Assembly: GCA_021782795.1 (NCBI GenBank) | Contig: JAJXUP010000004.1 | Coordinates: 1 to 36,748 of the forward strand | Length of the DNA: 36,748 nt | Direction: 5' to 3' | DNA from: Pseudomonadota bacterium | GTDB lineage: Bacteria; Pseudomonadota; Gammaproteobacteria; Burkholderiales; Sulfuriferulaceae | Shown here: positions 14,715-36,748 of the stretch, piece by piece | How positions within the stretch are numbered: the first letter of the stretch is position 1 | How the letters are laid out: each line of letters begins with the position of its first letter | Notes under the pieces: generated by a model | Told to the model about the DNA's origin: nothing | Databases searched by the model: none | Seen by the model: the letters and a program-made list of their open reading frames with translations, nothing else | Program-made: the position numbers and the translations under genes

Positions 14715-15648
14715 AGAATCTGTCACTTTTGTCAAGATCGATGAGTCTGCGGACGGACAGCGGGTCGACAATTACCTGTTCGGGCATCTCAAGGGCGTGC
14801 CCAAAAGCCATGTCTACCGCCTGTTGCGTACCGGACAGGTGCGCTTGAACAAAGGGCGGGTCGACGCTGCGCGCAAGCTGGCATTGGGTGACGAATTGCG
14901 GATTCCGCCGCTGCGTCTGGCGAGTGCGCCACCGCCGGTGGTGCTGCCCCGGCGTGGCCATCGGCTTGCCGACCGTATCCTGTGGCGCGACGATGCGTTG
15001 CTGGTGCTGGACAAGCCGGCCGGGCTGGCCGTACATGGCGGCAGCGGCGTGAGCTTTGGCGTGATCGAGCAGTTGCGCGCCGAATTGCCCGAATGCCGTT
15101 TCCTCGAACTGGCCCACAGGCTCGACCGGGAGACATCCGGGGTGCTGGTGCTGGCTTGCCGGCGCAGTGCGCTGGTCCGGTTGCATGACCAGTTTCGCGC
15201 CGGAGAGATCGACAAGCATTATCTGGCATTGGTGCAGGGCGACTGGAACTGGCCGGTGCGCCATGCGCAGGCACCGTTGCACAAGTACCTGGATGCCCAG
15301 GGCGAACGCCGCGTCATGGTGAGCCCGGAGGGCAAACAGGCGCACACGGTGTTTCGCCTGGTCGGGCGCTGGGGTGAGTTCGCCCTGCTGGATGCGGAGC
15401 TGCGCACCGGACGCACCCATCAGATCCGCGTGCATCTCGCCCATATGGGATTTCCCATCGCTGGTGACGATAAATACGGTGATTTTGCGCGTAACCGTGA
15501 GCTGGCGCGGGCCGGACTCAAGCGCATGTTCCTGCATGCCGCGCGTATCGGCCTTGCTCACCCGCTGACCGGCGAGCCGCTGCATATCGAAGCGCCGCTG
15601 CCGGATGAATTGCAACAATTTATGGATCGACTGAAACCCCATGCCTAA
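14698..15648 (+). CDS. rluC: 23S rRNA pseudouridine synthase RluC
   Basis: S4 domain (DGQRVDNYLFGHLKGVPKSHVYRLLRTGQVRLNKGR); LDKPAGLAVHGGSG; LAHRLDRETSGVLVLA; RTGRTHQIRVHLAHMGFPIAGDDKYG. Divergent from rne, as in many proteobacteria. Confidence 0.95.
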   Translation: MNDLRKESVTFVKIDESADGQRVDNYLFGHLKGVPKSHVYRLLRTGQVRLNKGRVDAARKLALGDELRIPPLRLASAPPPVVLPRRGHRLADRILWRDDALLVLDKPAGLAVHGGSGVSFGVIEQLRAELPECRFLELAHRLDRETSGVLVLACRRSALVRLHDQFRAGEIDKHYLALVQGDWNWPVRHAQAPLHKYLDAQGERRVMVSPEGKQAHTVFRLVGRWGEFALLDAELRTGRTHQIRVHLAHMGFPIAGDDKYGDFARNRELARAGLKRMFLHAARIGLAHPLTGEPLHIEAPLPDELQQFMDRLKPHA

Positions 15649-16297
15649 ACGTTTTGATTTGCTGGTATTCGACTGGGACGGCACACTCATGGATTCCACG
15701 GCCGTCATCGCGGGTTCGATGCGTGACGCCTGCGCCGATCTCGGCTTGCCCGTGCCGGGCGAGTCCGAGGCGCGCCACATCATCGGCCTGGGACTGACGC
15801 AGGCGATCGCCTGCCTGCAACCGCAGTTGCCGCAGGAACACTATCCGCCGCTGATCGCCCGTTATCGGCAGCATTTTCTGTCGCGTGACCAGGATCTCGT
15901 CCTGTTCGATGGCGTTGCGCAAACGATTCCGCGGCTCCATAATGCCGGTCACTGGGTCGCGGTGGCCACAGGAAAAAATCGCAACGGGCTTGATCGTGCG
16001 CTCGACCAGAGCGGTCTGCGTGACTATTTCCACGCCACGCGTTGCGCGGAGGAATGTTTCTCCAAGCCGCATCCGGCCATGCTGCACGAACTGATGGACG
16101 TGCTCGATGTGCCACCGGAGCGTACGCTGATGATCGGCGACACCAGTCATGACCTGATGATGGCACGCAATGCCGGTGTGGCTTCGGTGGCGGTCAGCTA
16201 TGGCGCGCACAGCGAAGAAGAATTGCATGAATACCGGCCGTTGCACCTGGTGCACACGTTTGCCGAACTGGCAGACTGGCTCGATCGCCACGCCTGA
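15641..16297 (+). CDS. HAD-superfamily hydrolase (phosphoglycolate phosphatase-like)
   Basis: FDLLVFDWDGTLMDS; VAVATGKNRNGL; KPHPAMLHELMDVLDVPPERTLMIGDTSHDLMMARNAGV. Confidence 0.9.
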   Translation: MPKRFDLLVFDWDGTLMDSTAVIAGSMRDACADLGLPVPGESEARHIIGLGLTQAIACLQPQLPQEHYPPLIARYRQHFLSRDQDLVLFDGVAQTIPRLHNAGHWVAVATGKNRNGLDRALDQSGLRDYFHATRCAEECFSKPHPAMLHELMDVLDVPPERTLMIGDTSHDLMMARNAGVASVAVSYGAHSEEELHEYRPLHLVHTFAELADWLDRHA

Positions 16298-24714: not shown

Positions 24715-25161
24715 ATGTTGCGACCGATGAATGATGCTGACCTGGCAGACATCGCCGGGATCGACCGATGCTGCTATGCGTTTCCCTGGACGCTGGGTAA
24801 CTTTTCCGATTCGCTGCTGGCGGGTCATCGCTGCTGCGTGTACGAGGAAAATGGCCGGATTTTCGCCTATTCGGTGATGATGGCGGTGGTTGACGAAGTG
24901 CACCTGCTCAATATGACCGTCGCGCCGGAACGTCAGGGGCTGGGGTATGGGGCGGCGCTGCTGCGGCGTCTGGTCGCCTGTTCGAGACAATCGCATTTTG
25001 CCAGTATGTGGCTTGAGGTGCGTGAGTCGAATGCTGCGGCGCAGGCCCTGTATCGCTCGGCCGGATTTGTGCGTGCCGGCGTGCGCAAAAACTATTATCC
25101 GGCCAGCAACGGCCGGGAGGATGCTTTGTTGATGGTACTGGATCTGCAACATGCGGCGTGA
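24715..25161 (+). CDS. rimI: Ribosomal protein S18-alanine N-acetyltransferase RimI
   Basis: GNAT fold: VDEVHLLNMTVAPERQGLGYGAALLRRLV...MWLEVRESNAAAQALYRSAGFVRAGVRKNYYPASNGREDALLMVL. Alternative TTG start at 24706. Confidence 0.93.
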   Translation: MLRPMNDADLADIAGIDRCCYAFPWTLGNFSDSLLAGHRCCVYEENGRIFAYSVMMAVVDEVHLLNMTVAPERQGLGYGAALLRRLVACSRQSHFASMWLEVRESNAAAQALYRSAGFVRAGVRKNYYPASNGREDALLMVLDLQHAA

Positions 25162-26111: not shown

Positions 26112-26525
26112 ATGAACCATCCTTTGTTGCAACACACGTTCGATCAGGCCGACCAGCAGATTGGTGCGATGGAAATCGCCCTGGCATCAGCGCAGGACAC
26201 TCCTCTGGCCGAAACCGTGGAACAGGCGACCCGTATCGTGCGCCAGTTGATCACTGCCTATATCGCCGATGTAGGTGAGGCATCGCAGCCGGCAGACGAT
26301 GCCGATCTGCTCGAATGCCTGCGCGTACTGGTCAAGGGTGACCCATCGTGGAACACCATTCGCGACAACTGCCGTGAACTGGTGTACTACCACAATTGTC
26401 TGCAGATGGATCGGGCGGATGCGCTTCCTGCGCATCCGCAAAAGATGACCGTACGTACATTGCGGCATCTGTTTTTGTTCATGAAGTCGCGCTGCATGCG
26501 CGAATCGCGTCTGGAGATGTCATGA
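26112..26525 (+). CDS. Small predicted alpha-helical protein, first gene of the AAA+/VWA cluster
   Basis: [55 protein letters not shown].... Stop overlaps the start of the AAA+ gene (26522). Confidence 0.72.
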
Positions 26526-27370
26526 AAGCATTGTTGAACCGGTTGCGCGGTGTCGAGCGCGACATTATTCAGGCGCCTCAGGAAGATGCTGCAGCCGAAC
26601 CGTATTACGAACCGCAGGGCAATGAGATCGTCCTGTTCGAAGCGGCCTGGCGCAAGCGTCTGCCGGTGATGCTCAAGGGGCCGACCGGTTGCGGCAAGAC
26701 GCGTTTTCTTGAGCATATGGCCTGGCGGCTGCGCCGGCCGCTGGTGACCGTGTCCTGCCACGAAGATCTGACCAGCGCCGATCTTGTCGGACGATTCCTG
26801 CTTGAAGGCGACCAGACGGTGTGGCAGGACGGGCCGTTGACGCGAGCGGTCAAGGCCGGTGCGATCTGTTACCTGGACGAAATCGTCGAGGCACGCACCG
26901 ACAGTACGGTGATCATCCATCCGCTGACCGACCACCGTCGTCAGCTTCCGCTGGAAAAAAAGGGCCAGGAGATCGAGGCGCATGAAGATTTCATGCTGGT
27001 GATTTCCTACAATCCCGGCTACCAGACCGTGCTCAAGGATCTCAAACCGTCGACCAAACAGCGCTTTGTCGGCATACAGTTCGACTATCCGACCGAAGTG
27101 ATCGAGCGGCGCATCGTGCATAACGAGGTGCCAGAACTGACGGAAGACCAGTTGCACCGTCTGGTGGCACTTGGACAGCGCGCGCGCGCACTGAAGGACC
27201 ATGGTCTCGATGAAGCCACGTCTACCCGGGCACTGGTATATGCCGGGAGTCTGATCGCCGCCGGTCTGCCCGCGCTGGAAGCCTGCGAAGCGGCGCTGGT
27301 GCGTCCTGTGACGGATGATCCCGAACTGGCCGAGGCGCTGCTGGAAATCGCGCGTGCGCATTTCAGCTGA
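26522..27370 (+). CDS. MoxR-type AAA+ ATPase, CbbQ/NirQ/NorQ family
   Basis: Walker [62 protein letters not shown] (Walker B); [30 protein letters not shown] is a family signature. Confidence 0.93.
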
Positions 27371-27389
27371 GCGGTCGGAAAGTGGCGGC

Positions 27390-29921
27390 ATGAGCTCAGT
27401 GGAAGTCCTGGCGGCGATCCAGCAGGAACTTGCCGGTCTCGAATCCATCAGTTTCGTCGCGCATCGTGACGCGCAGACGGCGCTGGTCGAGGTGCAGCCG
27501 GTGGCAGGGGACAGCGTAGCCCTGGAGTGGCTGCGTGCCTGTCGCGTGCTGTTCGAGCACGACCGGGACGCAGGCAAGGCGTTCATCCGGGGCAGCGCCG
27601 AGGCGGCCCGTGCCTGTGCTGGCGTGGCGGACTGGACGCAAAGCGCATTGCAGTTCATTGCCTGGCGTGGGTCGTGGCGAGCGGTGGATGGGTTCATGAC
27701 CCAGTTGCCAGCGGCCTGTCGGTTGCTGGGCGAGGCCGACAGCAAGCGCTGGGTGCAGTGGGGTCTCGAATGGTGCGCACGCCATCTGGAATCGGGTATT
27801 GCCTGGTTTCAGTGCCCGGTGGCGGAATTTTCCGGTGGGCACGGGCTGGCAGGCATCGAACAGGTGGCGTTGCCCAGCGTGGAGCTGTTCGAGAAGCGCC
27901 GGCTGGCGCTTGGGACCTACCTGCGCGGCGCCATCCGCGTACGCGATCTGAGCGGCGCGGCAGCCGTGCTGCCGTGGGCCAAGCGTGGCGCTGACATCCT
28001 GCAGGCCGGACGCCTGCGTGGTGAAGCGTATTTCCGCCTCGAATCGGAAGAGAGCCTCGCGCTGCTGATGGAAAACCTGCCGGGTTTCCGTTTGAGCGAA
28101 CACCATCGCCTGTTCCAGCTCATCCTGCGCGCCTGGTTCGGGAGCGGGTTCGATCTGTACGACAGCGACTGGTCGCCAGGCAAGGGTCGGGCATGGGTCG
28201 AAACCGATGGTGTAGCGCTGTATGTGCCGCTGGTCATGCCGGAACGTGGCACGGCGATGCTGTCGGTGATGCATGCGGCGGGTCATCTGGTGTTTCATTC
28301 TTATGAACGCCGCTATATCGAGGCACTGTTCCGCGCTGCCGGACGTGAACATCCGCCGCTCGATGCCGAGCAGCGCATCACCTGGCGGCCGCTGTTTGCT
28401 GCCTATGGCGAAGACATGATCCGTTTTCAGCTCCTGTTCGACCTGTGCGAAGACACGCGTGTCGATGCCCGCATTGCTGCCCAGGTGCCCGGGTATCTGC
28501 GTGGGCTGCAGGCTGCGGCAGAGGGGGTCGAAGTGCCGACCGGTGCGGCTGGCGAGTATATCGAATGGGGACGGGCGTTGTTGCGCTGGCAGGCACGGGG
28601 TGGCAGTGGTGACGAACGCTTCGATGCGTTGCATCCGCTGCTCGACACCAGTGCGACCATCGTCGATGCTTTCCGGATTGCCAATGTGCTGTATGCTCGG
28701 CCGGATCTGCCGCCAATCACGCTGGCTGGGCGCGAACTGGCCATTCTGCCCTGGCGTGCGCCCAATGCGGCGCGACCGGTCTACCCGCGCAACACGCTCG
28801 ACGAGGCAGCAGAAAAGCATGAGGCCGAAACGCCGGATGGTGAGGTCAGCGCCACGGATCTGCGCGAGAAACAGCAGACCACCACGATTCCGCAGCAGGC
28901 TGCGGGTGAGGATCCGGACATGGAGATCCCTCCCGAAGACACCGCCGGCTCGGGCGGTCGGGTGGGTGTGGGGCTGGCCCAGCCGGCGCACGTGCAGGGC
29001 ACGGGTCGCGGCCCCGAGTACAGCGAGAAGGGCACGCCTTATCCGGAATGGGATTATCGCGATAACCGCTACAAGATGCACTGGGCCTGGGTGCAGGAGA
29101 AAGTGTTGGGCGAGCATGATGCCGCGGCCGCAGCGTCCCTGCTTGCGGCCCATGCGCAGGTGCTGCAGCGCCTCAAACGCGCCATCCAGGCGCAGAAACC
29201 GCAACGCATGGCGCCACGACGACGCCAGTTCGAGGGCGAAGAGCTGGATTGGGATGCCACGGTGGAATGGGTGGTGGAAAAACGTCGTGGAACGTCGCCG
29301 TCAGCCGCGATTTACCGCCAGCGTCGCATGCAGACGCGGGATACCGCAGTGATCCTGCTGGCCGACCTGTCGACCTCCATCATGCAGCAGTGTGCAGAGG
29401 GCGGTCGCGTGGTCGATCGCATCCGCGCTGCGATGCTGCTGTTTGCCGAGAGCATGGAAGCCGTGGGCGACCCATATGCTGTGGCCGGATTCGCGTCCAA
29501 GTATCGCGATAACGTCAGCTATTATCCGATCAAGTCATTCGACGGTGTATTGGGCATGCGCGAGCGTGCCGTGCTGGGCGGGCTGAGCGGTCGTCTGGCT
29601 ACGCGTATGGGTGCGGCCATTCGCCATGCGGTGGCACAGTTCGATTCGGTCGCATCGGCCCGTCGTTTGCTGCTGATCCTGTCCGATGGCCGTCCTGCCG
29701 ATTACGATGACGGTGGCGACGAGCGCTATTTGCAGGAAGACACGCGCATGGCAGTGAAAGAGGCGATCGATGCCGGCGTGCACCCGTTCTGCATCACGCT
29801 CGATGAGGCAGGCAGCGAATATCTGCCACAGATCTTCGGTAGCGGGCATTACCTGGTGATACGCCACATGAACGAGTTGCCGAAGAAATTGCCCGAGGTG
29901 TATTTCAGGCTGCGACGTTGA
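27390..29921 (+). CDS. VWA-domain protein, NorD/CbbO-type partner of the AAA+ ATPase
   Basis: YPEWDYRDNRYKMHWAWVQEKVL motif; C-terminal VWA with MIDAS AVILLADLSTSIMQQC and LLLILSDGRPADYDDGGDERYLQEDTRMAVKEA. Confidence 0.9.
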   Translation: MSSVEVLAAIQQELAGLESISFVAHRDAQTALVEVQPVAGDSVALEWLRACRVLFEHDRDAGKAFIRGSAEAARACAGVADWTQSALQFIAWRGSWRAVDGFMTQLPAACRLLGEADSKRWVQWGLEWCARHLESGIAWFQCPVAEFSGGHGLAGIEQVALPSVELFEKRRLALGTYLRGAIRVRDLSGAAAVLPWAKRGADILQAGRLRGEAYFRLESEESLALLMENLPGFRLSEHHRLFQLILRAWFGSGFDLYDSDWSPGKGRAWVETDGVALYVPLVMPERGTAMLSVMHAAGHLVFHSYERRYIEALFRAAGREHPPLDAEQRITWRPLFAAYGEDMIRFQLLFDLCEDTRVDARIAAQVPGYLRGLQAAAEGVEVPTGAAGEYIEWGRALLRWQARGGSGDERFDALHPLLDTSATIVDAFRIANVLYARPDLPPITLAGRELAILPWRAPNAARPVYPRNTLDEAAEKHEAETPDGEVSATDLREKQQTTTIPQQAAGEDPDMEIPPEDTAGSGGRVGVGLAQPAHVQGTGRGPEYSEKGTPYPEWDYRDNRYKMHWAWVQEKVLGEHDAAAAASLLAAHAQVLQRLKRAIQAQKPQRMAPRRRQFEGEELDWDATVEWVVEKRRGTSPSAAIYRQRRMQTRDTAVILLADLSTSIMQQCAEGGRVVDRIRAAMLLFAESMEAVGDPYAVAGFASKYRDNVSYYPIKSFDGVLGMRERAVLGGLSGRLATRMGAAIRHAVAQFDSVASARRLLLILSDGRPADYDDGGDERYLQEDTRMAVKEAIDAGVHPFCITLDEAGSEYLPQIFGSGHYLVIRHMNELPKKLPEVYFRLRR

Positions 29922-29956
29922 TATGCTGCGATGATCTGGTGCCGCTGGGGGTTTTT

Positions 29957-29985
29957 GTGACAAATCCGGTGGGTTCGGCTATAGT
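29957..29985 (+). promoter_or_regulatory. Candidate sigma70 promoter upstream of the LOV-GGDEF-EAL gene
   Basis: GTGACA - 17 bp - TATAGT (5/6 match in each box). Confidence 0.5.
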
Positions 29986-30017
29986 TGCGTGCTGATTTGT
30001 CATGTCTGGGTATGGAT

Positions 30018-30049
30018 CTGGGTATGCGTCCTCGCCCAGCGGTTTTTTT
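30018..30049 (+). terminator. Candidate Rho-independent terminator or attenuator between norD/cbbO-like and the GGDEF-EAL gene
   Basis: CTGGG ... CCCAG CGG followed by T7 (30043-30049), with alternative upstream 5' arms. Confidence 0.45.
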
Positions 30050-30144
30050 GATGAGATTCCCCAACCATCACGGTCGCGTTGGCGAACGACCAGGCCAATG
30101 CCTGTATTGTGCAGTGATATGCAACCAGCCGCAGGGACGCGTCC

Positions 30145-32259
30145 ATGCATGACGCGGTTCGCGGTGATCTGCGCAGCATCCTGAAGCAGGCTGCGGGTCT
30201 GGCCGGTTATGCCACCGAAGACCTGCTGGCATGGCTGGTGACGTCCACGGACGGACGGTGCCAGGTGCTGGCGCTGCATGGCGACTTTTCTGTTGATGCG
30301 CCGGGTCTGGCTGGTGCAGGCCAGACAGCGCTCCCTGATGCTGTCTCTCAGCGCAACATGCTGGACGCATGGCTGACGGAACATGGCTATGGCCTGTGTC
30401 GCATCGAACCCGTGCGCGCCGGTGATGGCAGCGTGCTCGGCCAGCTCGTGCTCGGATTGCGCCCGGAGGCATCTGTTGCGGGCGTTCAGAGTGACTGGGT
30501 GGAATCGCTGGCACGCCTGTTGGCGCTGCGGGTAGAACAGCACCGGCAACATCAGCTGACGTCCGATCTGGTGACTGCGTTTGCCGCCATTTCCGAAGGT
30601 GTGCTGATGACGGATGCGCGGCAGCACATCTTCTACGTCAACCCCGCCTTTACGCGGATTACCGGCTACAGCCTCGATGAGGTGCGCGGCCGCAATTGCA
30701 ATCTTCTGCAAGGTGCCGACTCCAGCCAGGAAGTCCGCGACCGTATCCGAACCGCGCTGCAGCATGAACTGCCGTTTTTTGGCGAGATACTCAATTATCG
30801 CAAGGACGGTATGCCGTTCTGGAACGAGCTGACGATTCAGCCGGTGCGCACCGAGCGCGGCGAGATCCGGCATTTCGTCGGCGTCATTCGTGACGTCAGT
30901 CAGCGCAAGGCGCGCGAACTGATGGTTGAACACCTGATGTTGCACGATCCACTCACTGACCTGCCCAACCGGCGTGCGCTGGGCGATGTGCTGGCGCGGG
31001 CGATGGAGCGCTCGCATGTACAGGAGCGGCTGCTTGCGGTGGCGGTGCTTGATCTGGACGGGTTCAAACCGGTCAACGACGCATTCGGTCATGACGCCGG
31101 CGACACGGTGCTGAAGACGATCAGCAACCGTTTCCGGGGCAGTCTGCGTGCCGGTGATTTCGCGGCGCGGCTCGGTGGCGATGAGTTTGTGCTGCTGTTC
31201 AGCGATCTGGAGCATCTGGACCAGCTCGAGGCTGCGCTTGCCAGGGTGCAGGACGGCCTCGAACAGCCGATTGCGCTTGATGACGGTGTGGTGGTGTCGA
31301 TCAGCTGCAGCATCGGGGTGTGCATTTACCCATTTATCGATGTGTCCAGTCCGGATGGTCTGCTGCGTCTGGCCGACCAGGCGCTGTACGAGGCCAAGTC
31401 GGTCAAGGCCGTGCGTGAGCGCAACTGGGTGCTGTTCGGCGAGGAACACTGGCGGTCACGCAACGACCGGATACTGCGGCTGTTTACCGAGGATCATCTG
31501 GTCGTGCATTACCAGCCGATATTGAATGTAGACACCGGAAAAATCGTCGGCGTCGAAGCACTGGCCAGGCTGCGCGATGACGCCGGTGACCTGTTGTACC
31601 CGTCCGAGTTCCTCTCCCGGCTCGATGCGGCGCAGACGACCGAGCTCAGCCGCATGGTGCTGACACAGTCGCTTGCCGATCTGGCGCGGCTCGATGCTTT
31701 GGGTTCCCGTTTGTGGGTGTCATTCAATATTGCTCCCGAATCGTTCTGCGGCAACTGCGTGCCATGCCTGGAAGGGGTGATCCGTGCCAGCGGCATCGAT
31801 CCGTCCAGGGTAACGGTCGAGGTGCTCGAAGGCAGCGATTTTCTTGAACGCACCAGTGCGTTGGCCATTTTTCACGAGATCCGCAAGCTGGGAATTCGCG
31901 TGGCGCTGGATGATGTCGGCAGTGCCTACGCCTCGCTGCTGCGCATGAAGGAATTGCCGATCGACGAGATCAAGCTTGATCAGGGGTTTGTGCGCACGCT
32001 GGAACACAATCCGCAGGATCTGCATTTCGTGCGTGCCATCCAGGACCTGGCGGAAGAACTGTCGGTCGACCTGGTGGTGGAAGGGGTGGAAACTCTGCCG
32101 ATCCTCGATGCCATGCAAGGCATGGGTGTGGCGTTCGTACAGGGCTATGCCATCAGCCGCCCGGTGCCGATCGAGCGCCTGGTGGAACTGCTTGCCGGGC
32201 AGCCCGGGCGTGGCGCCAGGGTAGCAGAAGGATTTTTGGACTGTATGCCAAAACGCTGA
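30145..32259 (+). CDS. LOV-like PAS / GGDEF / EAL protein (diguanylate cyclase/phosphodiesterase)
   Basis: N-terminal GAF-like region; PAS/LOV YVNPAFTRITGYSLDEVRGRNCNLLQG...NYRKDGMPFWNELTIQPV...FVGVIRDVS; RLGGDEFVLLF; EAL domain VGVEALARL ... LDDVGSAYASL ... EIKLD ... VVEGVET ... VQGYAISRPVPI. Confidence 0.92.
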   Translation: MHDAVRGDLRSILKQAAGLAGYATEDLLAWLVTSTDGRCQVLALHGDFSVDAPGLAGAGQTALPDAVSQRNMLDAWLTEHGYGLCRIEPVRAGDGSVLGQLVLGLRPEASVAGVQSDWVESLARLLALRVEQHRQHQLTSDLVTAFAAISEGVLMTDARQHIFYVNPAFTRITGYSLDEVRGRNCNLLQGADSSQEVRDRIRTALQHELPFFGEILNYRKDGMPFWNELTIQPVRTERGEIRHFVGVIRDVSQRKARELMVEHLMLHDPLTDLPNRRALGDVLARAMERSHVQERLLAVAVLDLDGFKPVNDAFGHDAGDTVLKTISNRFRGSLRAGDFAARLGGDEFVLLFSDLEHLDQLEAALARVQDGLEQPIALDDGVVVSISCSIGVCIYPFIDVSSPDGLLRLADQALYEAKSVKAVRERNWVLFGEEHWRSRNDRILRLFTEDHLVVHYQPILNVDTGKIVGVEALARLRDDAGDLLYPSEFLSRLDAAQTTELSRMVLTQSLADLARLDALGSRLWVSFNIAPESFCGNCVPCLEGVIRASGIDPSRVTVEVLEGSDFLERTSALAIFHEIRKLGIRVALDDVGSAYASLLRMKELPIDEIKLDQGFVRTLEHNPQDLHFVRAIQDLAEELSVDLVVEGVETLPILDAMQGMGVAFVQGYAISRPVPIERLVELLAGQPGRGARVAEGFLDCMPKR

Positions 32260-32282
32260 TCGCTCACCAGGCGATCAAGAAG

Positions 32283-32558
32283 ATGGCGCGCGTCAATCTC
32301 GACCGGTTGCACCTGGAGACGCTGGAAAACCCCCGTGTGTGCCAGATGCACCTGGCAATGCAGCGGCTCGGCTGCGCCGAGCCGGATGAATTGTTCGCCC
32401 TGCATGATGAATACCACCACTGCCTCGGCCGGGTGCTGCGCAGCATCGATGCCACTGCCATGACCAGTGGGCAGTGGCAGCAGGTGGAGCAGGCCATGCA
32501 GCGCTTTCTGGACGCATTGATGGTTGCGCACGCTGCGCGTAAGGCTGACGCAGCTTAG
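32283..32558 (+). CDS. Short ORF, likely the C-terminal CZB-like domain of the upstream GGDEF-EAL protein displaced by a frameshift (or a separate small gene)
   Basis: MARVNLDRLHLETLENPRVCQMHLAMQRLGCAEPDELFALHDEYHHCLGRVL.... The same frame is open upstream through FGLYAKTLIAHQAIKK, which joins the EAL frame at T5 (32233-32237). Confidence 0.55.
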   Translation: MARVNLDRLHLETLENPRVCQMHLAMQRLGCAEPDELFALHDEYHHCLGRVLRSIDATAMTSGQWQQVEQAMQRFLDALMVAHAARKADAA

Positions 32559-32564
32559 GCAGCG

Positions 32565-33020
32565 TCAGCCGTGACGATTGTGACTGCGCATGGCGCGCTG
32601 GATTTCGCGTTCGGTTTCGCGGGTTTTTGACGCCTCGCGCTTGTCGTGCTGCTTCTTGCCTTTGGCCAGACCGATTTCAAGCTTGATGCGTGAACGTTTG
32701 TAGTGCAGGTCGAGCGGCACCAGCGTGTAGCCGGCACGTTCCACCTTGCCGATCAGGCGGCTGATTTCTTCGGCATGCAGCAGCAGTTTGCGGGTGCGCG
32801 TGGTATCCGGATGAATGTGTGTCGAGGCTGTGGCCAATGGGCTGATGTGCGCGCCGATCAGGAAAACTTCGCCATTCTTGATCACGACGTAGGCTTCCTT
32901 GAGCTGCACACGACCCGCCCGGATGGCTTTAACCTCCCAGCCTTCAAGCATCAGCCCGGCTTCATATTTCTCTTCTATGAAATAATCGTGCCAGACTTTC
33001 CTGTTTTCCGCGATGTTCAT
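32565..33020 (-). CDS. smpB: SsrA-binding protein SmpB
   Basis: [57 protein letters not shown]...[50 protein letters not shown]. Confidence 0.97.
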
Positions 33021-33075
33021 GACACTTTTTTCCCCGAATCGGGTATTCTACCAGTTTTTGCAGGCAAGCCGGATC

Positions 33076-33509
33076 ATGGCGTTGGTGAACAGAAGCGTGC
33101 TGGTGGGTCACAGCGCGCAGCAGATGTTTGAGCTGGTCGACCGAGTGGAGGATTACCCGCAATTCCTTCCCTGGTGTGGGGGCACCAATGTCAGCATGCG
33201 CACGGAAGACCGGTTGGTGGCGAGCATCGACATCAATTACATGCACATTCGTCAGCAGTTCAGCACCGAGAACAGCAACGAGCATCCGACGCTGATCCGT
33301 ATTCGCCTGGTGGACGGACCGTTTCGTCTGCTCGAAGGCGAATGGCGTTTTCGTGCGCTGGGAGACGAGGCCTGCAAGATCGAATTCATGCTTCATTACG
33401 AGTTTTCCAGCAGGATACTGGATACCGTACTGGGGCCTGTTTTCGGATTCATCGCCAACAGTTTCGTTGAAGCGTTTATTGAACGTGCAGATCGGGTGTA
33501 TGGGGCATC

Positions 33510-33513
<4 letters not shown>
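33076..33513 (+). CDS. ratA: RatA-like / COQ10-START family protein
   Basis: MALVNRSVLVGHSAQQMFELVDRVEDYPQFLPWCGGTNV...LVDGPFRLLEGEWRFRAL...LGPVFGFIANSFVEAFIERADRVYG. Divergent from smpB and followed by rnfH. Confidence 0.92.
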
Positions 33514-35368
<1,855 letters not shown>

Positions 35369-35428
35369 CCGGACAGTCCGGCATGTGCCGGAGTGGAATC
35401 CTTATTGCCTGCCCGTGGCGCTGACACC

Positions 35429-36748
35429 ATGAACGAACAAAAGATACTTATTCTCGACTTTGGCTCGCAGTACACCCAGCTCATCGCGCGTCGGGTGCGC
35501 GAGGCGCATGTGTATTGTGAGCTGCATCCCTACGACGTCAGCGAGGCGTTCATTCGCGCGTGGCGGCCCGCGGGCATCATTCTCTCGGGCGGACCCGCAT
35601 CGGTGACCGGCGCGGATACGCCGCGCGCACCGCAATGCGTGTTCGAGCTTGGCGTGCCGGTGCTCGGCGTCTGCTACGGCATGCAGACCATGGCTGCGCA
35701 GCTGGGCGGGGCAGTCGAGTCATCGCACGTGCGTGAGTTCGGTTATGCCCGCGTGCGCGTCAATGCCAGCAGCGCATTGTTTTCCGGCCTGCGCGACGCC
35801 GTGGATGCTGATGGTCAGCCCATGCTCGACGTATGGATGAGCCACGGCGACAAGGTGACACAACTGCCGCCCGGCTTTGTTACCATTGCCGACAATGCGG
35901 CAACGCCGATTGCGGCCATGTCCGATGCCGCGCGCCGCTTTTATGGCGTGCAGTTTCATCCCGAGGTGACGCATACCCTACAGGGCAAGGCGATTTTGTC
36001 GCATTTCGTACATGGCATCTGCGGTCTCGCGGGTGACTGGCGCATGCCTGCCTGGGTCGATCAGGCATTGGAAAAGATTCGCGCTACTGTCGGTAGCGAT
36101 CAGGTGCTGCTCGGCCTGTCCGGCGGTGTCGATTCGTCGGTGCTGGCAGCACTGCTGCACCGTGCCATTGGTGACCAGCTTGTCTGCGTGTTTGTCGACA
36201 ACGGCTTGCTGCGGCTCAATGAGGCCACCCAGGTGATGGAAACCTTTTCGCGCCACCTTGGGGTGCGTGTGATCCACGTGGACGCTGGCGCCGAGTTCAT
36301 GCACCATCTGGCGGGGGTTACCGATCCGGAGCAAAAGCGCAAGATCATCGGGCGTGAGTTCGTTGAGGTGTTTCAGCGCGAAGCCGCCCGGCTGCCGGAC
36401 GTCAAATGGCTGGCGCAGGGGACCATCTATCCCGACGTGATCGAGTCGGCTGGGGCCGGTACCAAAAAGGCCCACGCCATCAAGTCGCATCACAATGTCG
36501 GGGGGTTGCCAGAGAAGCTGCATCTCAAGCTGCTGGAGCCATTGCGCGACCTGTTCAAGGACGAGGTGCGGGAACTGGGACTGGTGCTTGGCCTGCCGCA
36601 TGAAATGGTCTACCGCCATCCGTTCCCCGGGCCGGGGCTCGGAGTGCGTATTCTGGGGGAAGTGCGCGCCGAATATGCGGAACTGCTGCGCCACGCCGAC
36701 GCGATCTTCATCGAGGAATTGCGTGCCGCCGGATGGTACGAGCAGGTG
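35429..36748 (+). CDS. guaA: GMP synthase (glutamine-hydrolysing), truncated by window end
   Basis: [123 protein letters not shown]. Open to the last base. Confidence 0.97.

Follow-up and report, generated by a model that had tools for sequence, protein, structure and literature searches.

An apparent one-base loss severs a CZB-like tail from a LOV-GGDEF-EAL enzyme in a mine-water-type bacterium

The window, i.e., the whole 36,748-nucleotide stretch of DNA that was analysed, is contig C30 of a 2.1-Mb draft genome (205 contigs, 91% complete). The host is a mine-water-type bacterium whose genus includes a Sulfuriferula-named assembly. On the forward strand, which carries all features of this locus, positions 30145-32259 encode a LOV-GGDEF-EAL c-di-GMP enzyme of 704 aa as read, recognized from its open reading frame and from Pfam matches to PAS, GGDEF, and EAL. 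The LOV-type PAS domain (Pfam; 30568-30915) contains the flavin-cysteine motif GRNCNLLQ (aa 182-189; 30688-30711). It is followed by a GGDEF domain whose RLGGDEF motif is intact (Pfam and translation; 30940-31401) and by a complete EAL domain (31468-32163) that spans positions 3-236 of the 236 in PF00563. Beyond a linker (32164-32232) lie a run of five thymines (T5; 32233-32237) and, in the -1 frame, a tail domain that we call CZB-like on the basis of its homologues, profile, and fold (32235-32558, stop codon included). A mechanically called small ORF (32283-32558) starts within this tail, leaving out its first His and part of its helix 1.

The first-pass annotation had proposed that a frameshift at the T5 run splits the tail from the enzyme, and both frames read as it described. 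The run lies within GGATTTTTGG and is read as GGA TTT TTG in the zero frame, after which the EAL frame reaches a stop at 32259, with its last eight residues (FLDCMPKR*) off-register. The -1 frame, FGLYAKTLIAHQAIKK...ADAA*, is open to 32558 for 108 codons; its translation includes FGLYAKTLIAHQAIKKMARVNLDRLHLETLENPRVCQMHLAMQRLG and, further on, LHDEYHHCLG. The codon of the first tail His (in AHQAIKK) sits at 32265, so this residue is indeed encoded only upstream of the small-ORF ATG at 32283, as had been pointed out. When the ORFs of relatives were aligned to the window, ~40 homologues broke frame at the same place.

To place the lesion, we relied on the spacing of the linker. Of the 64 relatives in which this spacing could be measured, 52 have exactly 30 residues between the GY at the EAL end and the tail's L-F-G motif, and the zero frame of the window likewise has 30 residues from GY to 32232. 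Hence, the lesion lies at ~32232-32235 and amounts to a net loss of one base. Adding a T to the T5 run, the repair put forward in the first-pass annotation, does restore the frame but is not the sole option. T5 is also what the closest Sulfuriferula-type relatives (L081, L082, and L115) have here, read as CTT TTT GG (CTTTTTGG), so a base other than T may have been lost, possibly the one that precedes the run.

A search of 61 genomes, own genome included, found tail homologues in eight, with E-values down to 6.5e-15, beyond what chance would give. All 16 tail homologue loci in these eight genomes are in one open frame, directly after a GGDEF-EAL of their own; the own genome has two further tail copies (G000:C152 and G000:C172). 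We scanned named genomes with the EAL end, because the sequences in the initial tail alignment differed too much for this purpose, and obtained 80 relatives, many from Acidithiobacillus and others from Sulfuriferula-type, Nitrospirae, Aquificaceae, Halothiobacillus, and Acidihalobacter members. Contig ends cut three of these loci near the tail, and the remaining 77 all have an in-frame EAL tail region, with an HxxYH-type core that is clear in 52 tails. The tail is thus continuous with the EAL domain wherever the contig reaches, and neither the genome search nor the 80 named loci contained a stand-alone tail gene. With continuous tails and no separate small gene among the relatives, the proposal that the small ORF is a severed C-terminal domain stands.

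These relatives are family members rather than strict orthologues, since the closest are at most 59% identical over GGDEF-EAL. A GGDEF-EAL tree places the window gene, whose branch is long (0.69), among Acidithiobacillus and Sulfuriferula-type sequences in a 13-member group with good support. The neighbourhood is not common to the window and the relative G008. The smpB-guaB block and the cbbQ/cbbO-type genes, which flank the LOV-GGDEF-EAL gene at 26328-36748 of the window, are on different contigs in G008, so the placement of this gene between the two appears not to be conserved.

The same comparison bears on a different reading of the small ORF, namely as a separate gene that starts at ATG 32283 or at an upstream non-canonical codon and acts in trans. 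The tail frame is open, and a CTG at 32241 lies 8 nt after an AGAAGGA stretch, but there is no convincing ribosome-binding site, a product begun at ATG 32283 would lose part of helix 1 together with the first His, and the tail does not stand alone in any relative found. Nor did the window sequence give any support for re-initiation or separate expression of the tail. We consider a separate gene extremely improbable.

We then asked what the tail is. Its consensus across the family is SLxGLYAxQ...H...NP...L.D...CPIH...RLG...LHxxYHxA, and the His/Cys/HxxxH arrangement noted in the first-pass annotation is conserved. Among 72 homologues, the first putative ligand His (32265-32267) is a His in 46, the putative ligand Cys (32340-32342) is a Cys in 61, and the two putative ligand His residues of LHxxYH (32403-32405 and 32415-32417) are His in 63 and 54, respectively. 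The window tail therefore has the His-Cys-HxxxH order of a 3His/1Cys zinc core, with metal binding itself putative.

Several lines of evidence connect this tail to CZB (PF13682; E. coli DgcZ, 3T9O, and Helicobacter TlpD), which has the same His...Cys...HxxxH order. First, an hhalign comparison of a 53-sequence tail profile with CZB domains, mostly from the same genus, gave a probability of 86% (P 5.6e-6), with the Cys and HxxxH in register; the score of 33-36 compares with a shuffle maximum of 17-18, and 0 of 200 column shuffles reached it. The first tail His falls near a Trp one helical turn after the CZB His in this alignment, which makes it the least certain ligand. Second, AlphaFold models of the window tail and of a second member are all-helical (pLDDT 86 and 96). 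In Foldseek searches, the window tail ranked the DgcZ CZB 3T9O first (probability 0.99, TM 0.64, E-value not significant), and the second member ranked it sixth by E-value (probability 0.80, E-value not significant), although its TM of 0.64 was the highest among the matches listed. Third, the tail resembles CZB in its predicted helical bundle and in its coupling to a c-di-GMP enzyme, and canonical CZB domains occupy the tail's position, directly after EAL, in other enzymes of the own genome and genus. There are seven canonical CZB domains in the own genome (G000:C9, C17, C37, C58, C64, C118, and C183), at least three of them directly after PAS-GGDEF-EAL. The spacing of the tail core, 25/21/4, is similar to the ~26-30/23-26/4 in CZBs of the genus.

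The tail nevertheless departs from CZB in several respects. The CX(L/F)GXW(Y/L) sequence around the Cys serves as a CZB motif criterion (PMC8262984); the window tail has CQMHLAM at this position and the family consensus is CPIH, i.e., C-x-x-H in its place. No Trp follows the first His at a distance of three residues, and the tail begins with a SLxGLYA motif of its own. Neither the window tail nor 33 family members scored above the Pfam gathering cut-off for PF13682, whereas true PF13682 matches occur elsewhere in 17 of a set of 31 genomes drawn mainly from this genus. Searches of Pfam, NCBIfam, and PDB sequences gave no credible match to the tail, and we attribute weak matches such as CATASP and DIRP to chance. 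We conclude that the tail is probably a divergent CZB-like domain and a remote relative of CZB. The label "CZB-like" given in the first-pass annotation is thus kept, on profile homology and a consistent predicted fold, because the tail is not a canonical CZB by motif or by Pfam, though likely a remote relative.

The state of the tail bears on the age of the lesion. GC content at the three codon positions is 0.69/0.38/0.77 in the tail and 0.72/0.41/0.72 in the EAL gene, and the tail has a positive codon score and no stops. Compared with other pairs, its divergence is within range and at most slightly low; this comparison is not decisive for relaxed selection. Since the codon bias is native, all putative ligands are kept, and there is no clear excess of divergence, the lesion is either recent or an assembly error.

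To learn whether the assembly is generally rich in indels, we aligned ORFs of relatives to ~89 kb of homologue-covered sequence of the own genome and found no other convincing frameshift, which indicates that it is not. A candidate at 25142-25151 of the window was rejected as a gene overlap, and one in L193 (G000:C14; 2927-4521) as two genes with an overlapping stop and start. The two L193 genes encode ABC ATP-binding domains that form one fused protein in G008. A candidate in L187 looks like a stop-to-stop extension that precedes a gene start, and a weak one at 15405-16009 has one distant match as its sole basis.

The sole convincing frameshift in ~89 kb thus fits a recent, genuine deletion of one base that is fixed in the population sampled, or common there, and leaves a tail-less and possibly deregulated enzyme. 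The site at a homopolymer (in the window, a 36-nt stretch meets a run of five or more in only ~7% of cases) and the completeness of the EAL domain agree with such a deletion, to which we give slightly better than an even chance. Given no clear relaxed selection in the tail, a real mutation would have to be very young. Alternatively, the base was lost from the consensus of a draft, metagenome-type assembly, and the organism has an intact fused gene. This fits the draft state of the genome (205 contigs, 91% complete), a tail that is intact in its ligands and codon bias, and the continuity of all relatives; it fits less well with the lack of a second convincing indel in ~89 kb and with a five-base run, an easy target for short-read sequencing. 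We rate a consensus error at somewhat under even odds.

The first-pass annotation had also named -1 slippage and phase variation at the T5 run as causes, and these two find no support. Programmed slippage would yield a short and a long protein, and the T5 before the stop and the AGAAGGA stretch just upstream might be taken to favour it. However, A_TTT_TTG does not fit the X_XXY_YYZ slippery heptamer, the downstream folding is ordinary (z -0.42), and 64 of 70 relatives have no T5 near the motif, the other six being in frame without slippage. With no heptamer, no unusual structure, and a run that is not conserved, slippage is very unlikely. Phase variation is unlikely as well: we looked for a long hypermutable repeat tract and found T5 only, a short run and one of many such runs in the window. 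Mutation and a sequencing indel remain from the four proposed causes, and, most likely, the base went missing by recent mutation or in the assembly, with no special mechanism.

Taken together, we favor the explanation, with a probability of roughly 0.87, that this locus carries the CZB-like tail of a LOV-GGDEF-EAL enzyme severed by a net one-base loss, either recent or an assembly error. On this reading, a LOV-type sensor precedes the GGDEF-EAL c-di-GMP enzyme encoded here, and a CZB-like, putatively metal-binding regulatory domain follows it; as assembled, the sequence lacks one base where the EAL linker meets the tail, and translation stops eight residues on. If the lesion is real, the protein made by the cell would consist of the sensor plus its two catalytic domains and would lack the tail. 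In DgcZ, the GGDEF enzyme is inhibited by CZB-bound zinc, an effect that is lifted when the Cys becomes oxidized (PMC8262984). By analogy with this E. coli enzyme, the tail might gate c-di-GMP synthesis or breakdown by metal or oxidant, in which case its loss would free the enzyme and uncouple c-di-GMP turnover from the metal/redox signal of the tail.

A frameshift is by itself ordinary. What is new, as a modest by-product of tracing it, is an undescribed CZB-like subfamily that is common in acid-mine bacteria: a C-terminal family, unseen by Pfam and NCBIfam, on many acidophile GGDEF-EAL enzymes. PAS-GGDEF-EAL-CZB and protoglobin-GGDEF-EAL-CZB enzymes have already been described in Acidithiobacillus (PMC6416229). 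They have the same architecture as the window enzyme and belong to the same guild of acidophilic mine bacteria, but their CZB is of the kind that domain searches recognize, whereas the tail described here represents a divergent subfamily and, in the window copy, is interrupted by a frameshift. If the tail binds zinc or another metal, control of c-di-GMP and biofilm would be tied to metal or oxidant levels in metal-rich acid waters, and the CZB family would widen beyond the CxLGxW motif.

Within the set L080-L159, the tail family occurs in Pseudomonadota, Nitrospirota, Aquificota, and Acidobacteriota, with many members from acid-mine settings, and this distribution suggests horizontal spread. 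Seven tail paralogues in Acidithiobacillus and relatives (L119, L124, L125, L135, L139, L144, and L152) keep the LxGxYA-type start and have lost the Cys and/or His residues, which suggests a changed signal. As a broader and tentative proposal, to which we assign a little less than an even chance, the tails may form an unnamed metal/redox-sensing subfamily, remote kin of CZB with a C-x-x-H/LHxxYH signature, that controls GGDEF-EAL enzymes in acid-mine bacteria of several phyla; some paralogues would be ligand-less, and this genome would carry a switch-off allele.

At its other end, the window enzyme resembles LOV-GGDEF-EAL enzymes of the blue-light photoreceptor type in its GRNCNLLQ motif, GGDEF, and EAL domains, and differs from them in that its lineage adds the C-terminal CZB-like tail, severed in the window copy. 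This LOV motif in the PAS domain of the window has no counterpart in the closest tail-bearing relatives (L004-L006), whose PAS is of the ordinary kind. Other LOV-GGDEF-EAL-tail proteins are encoded at L126, L129, L130, and L132.
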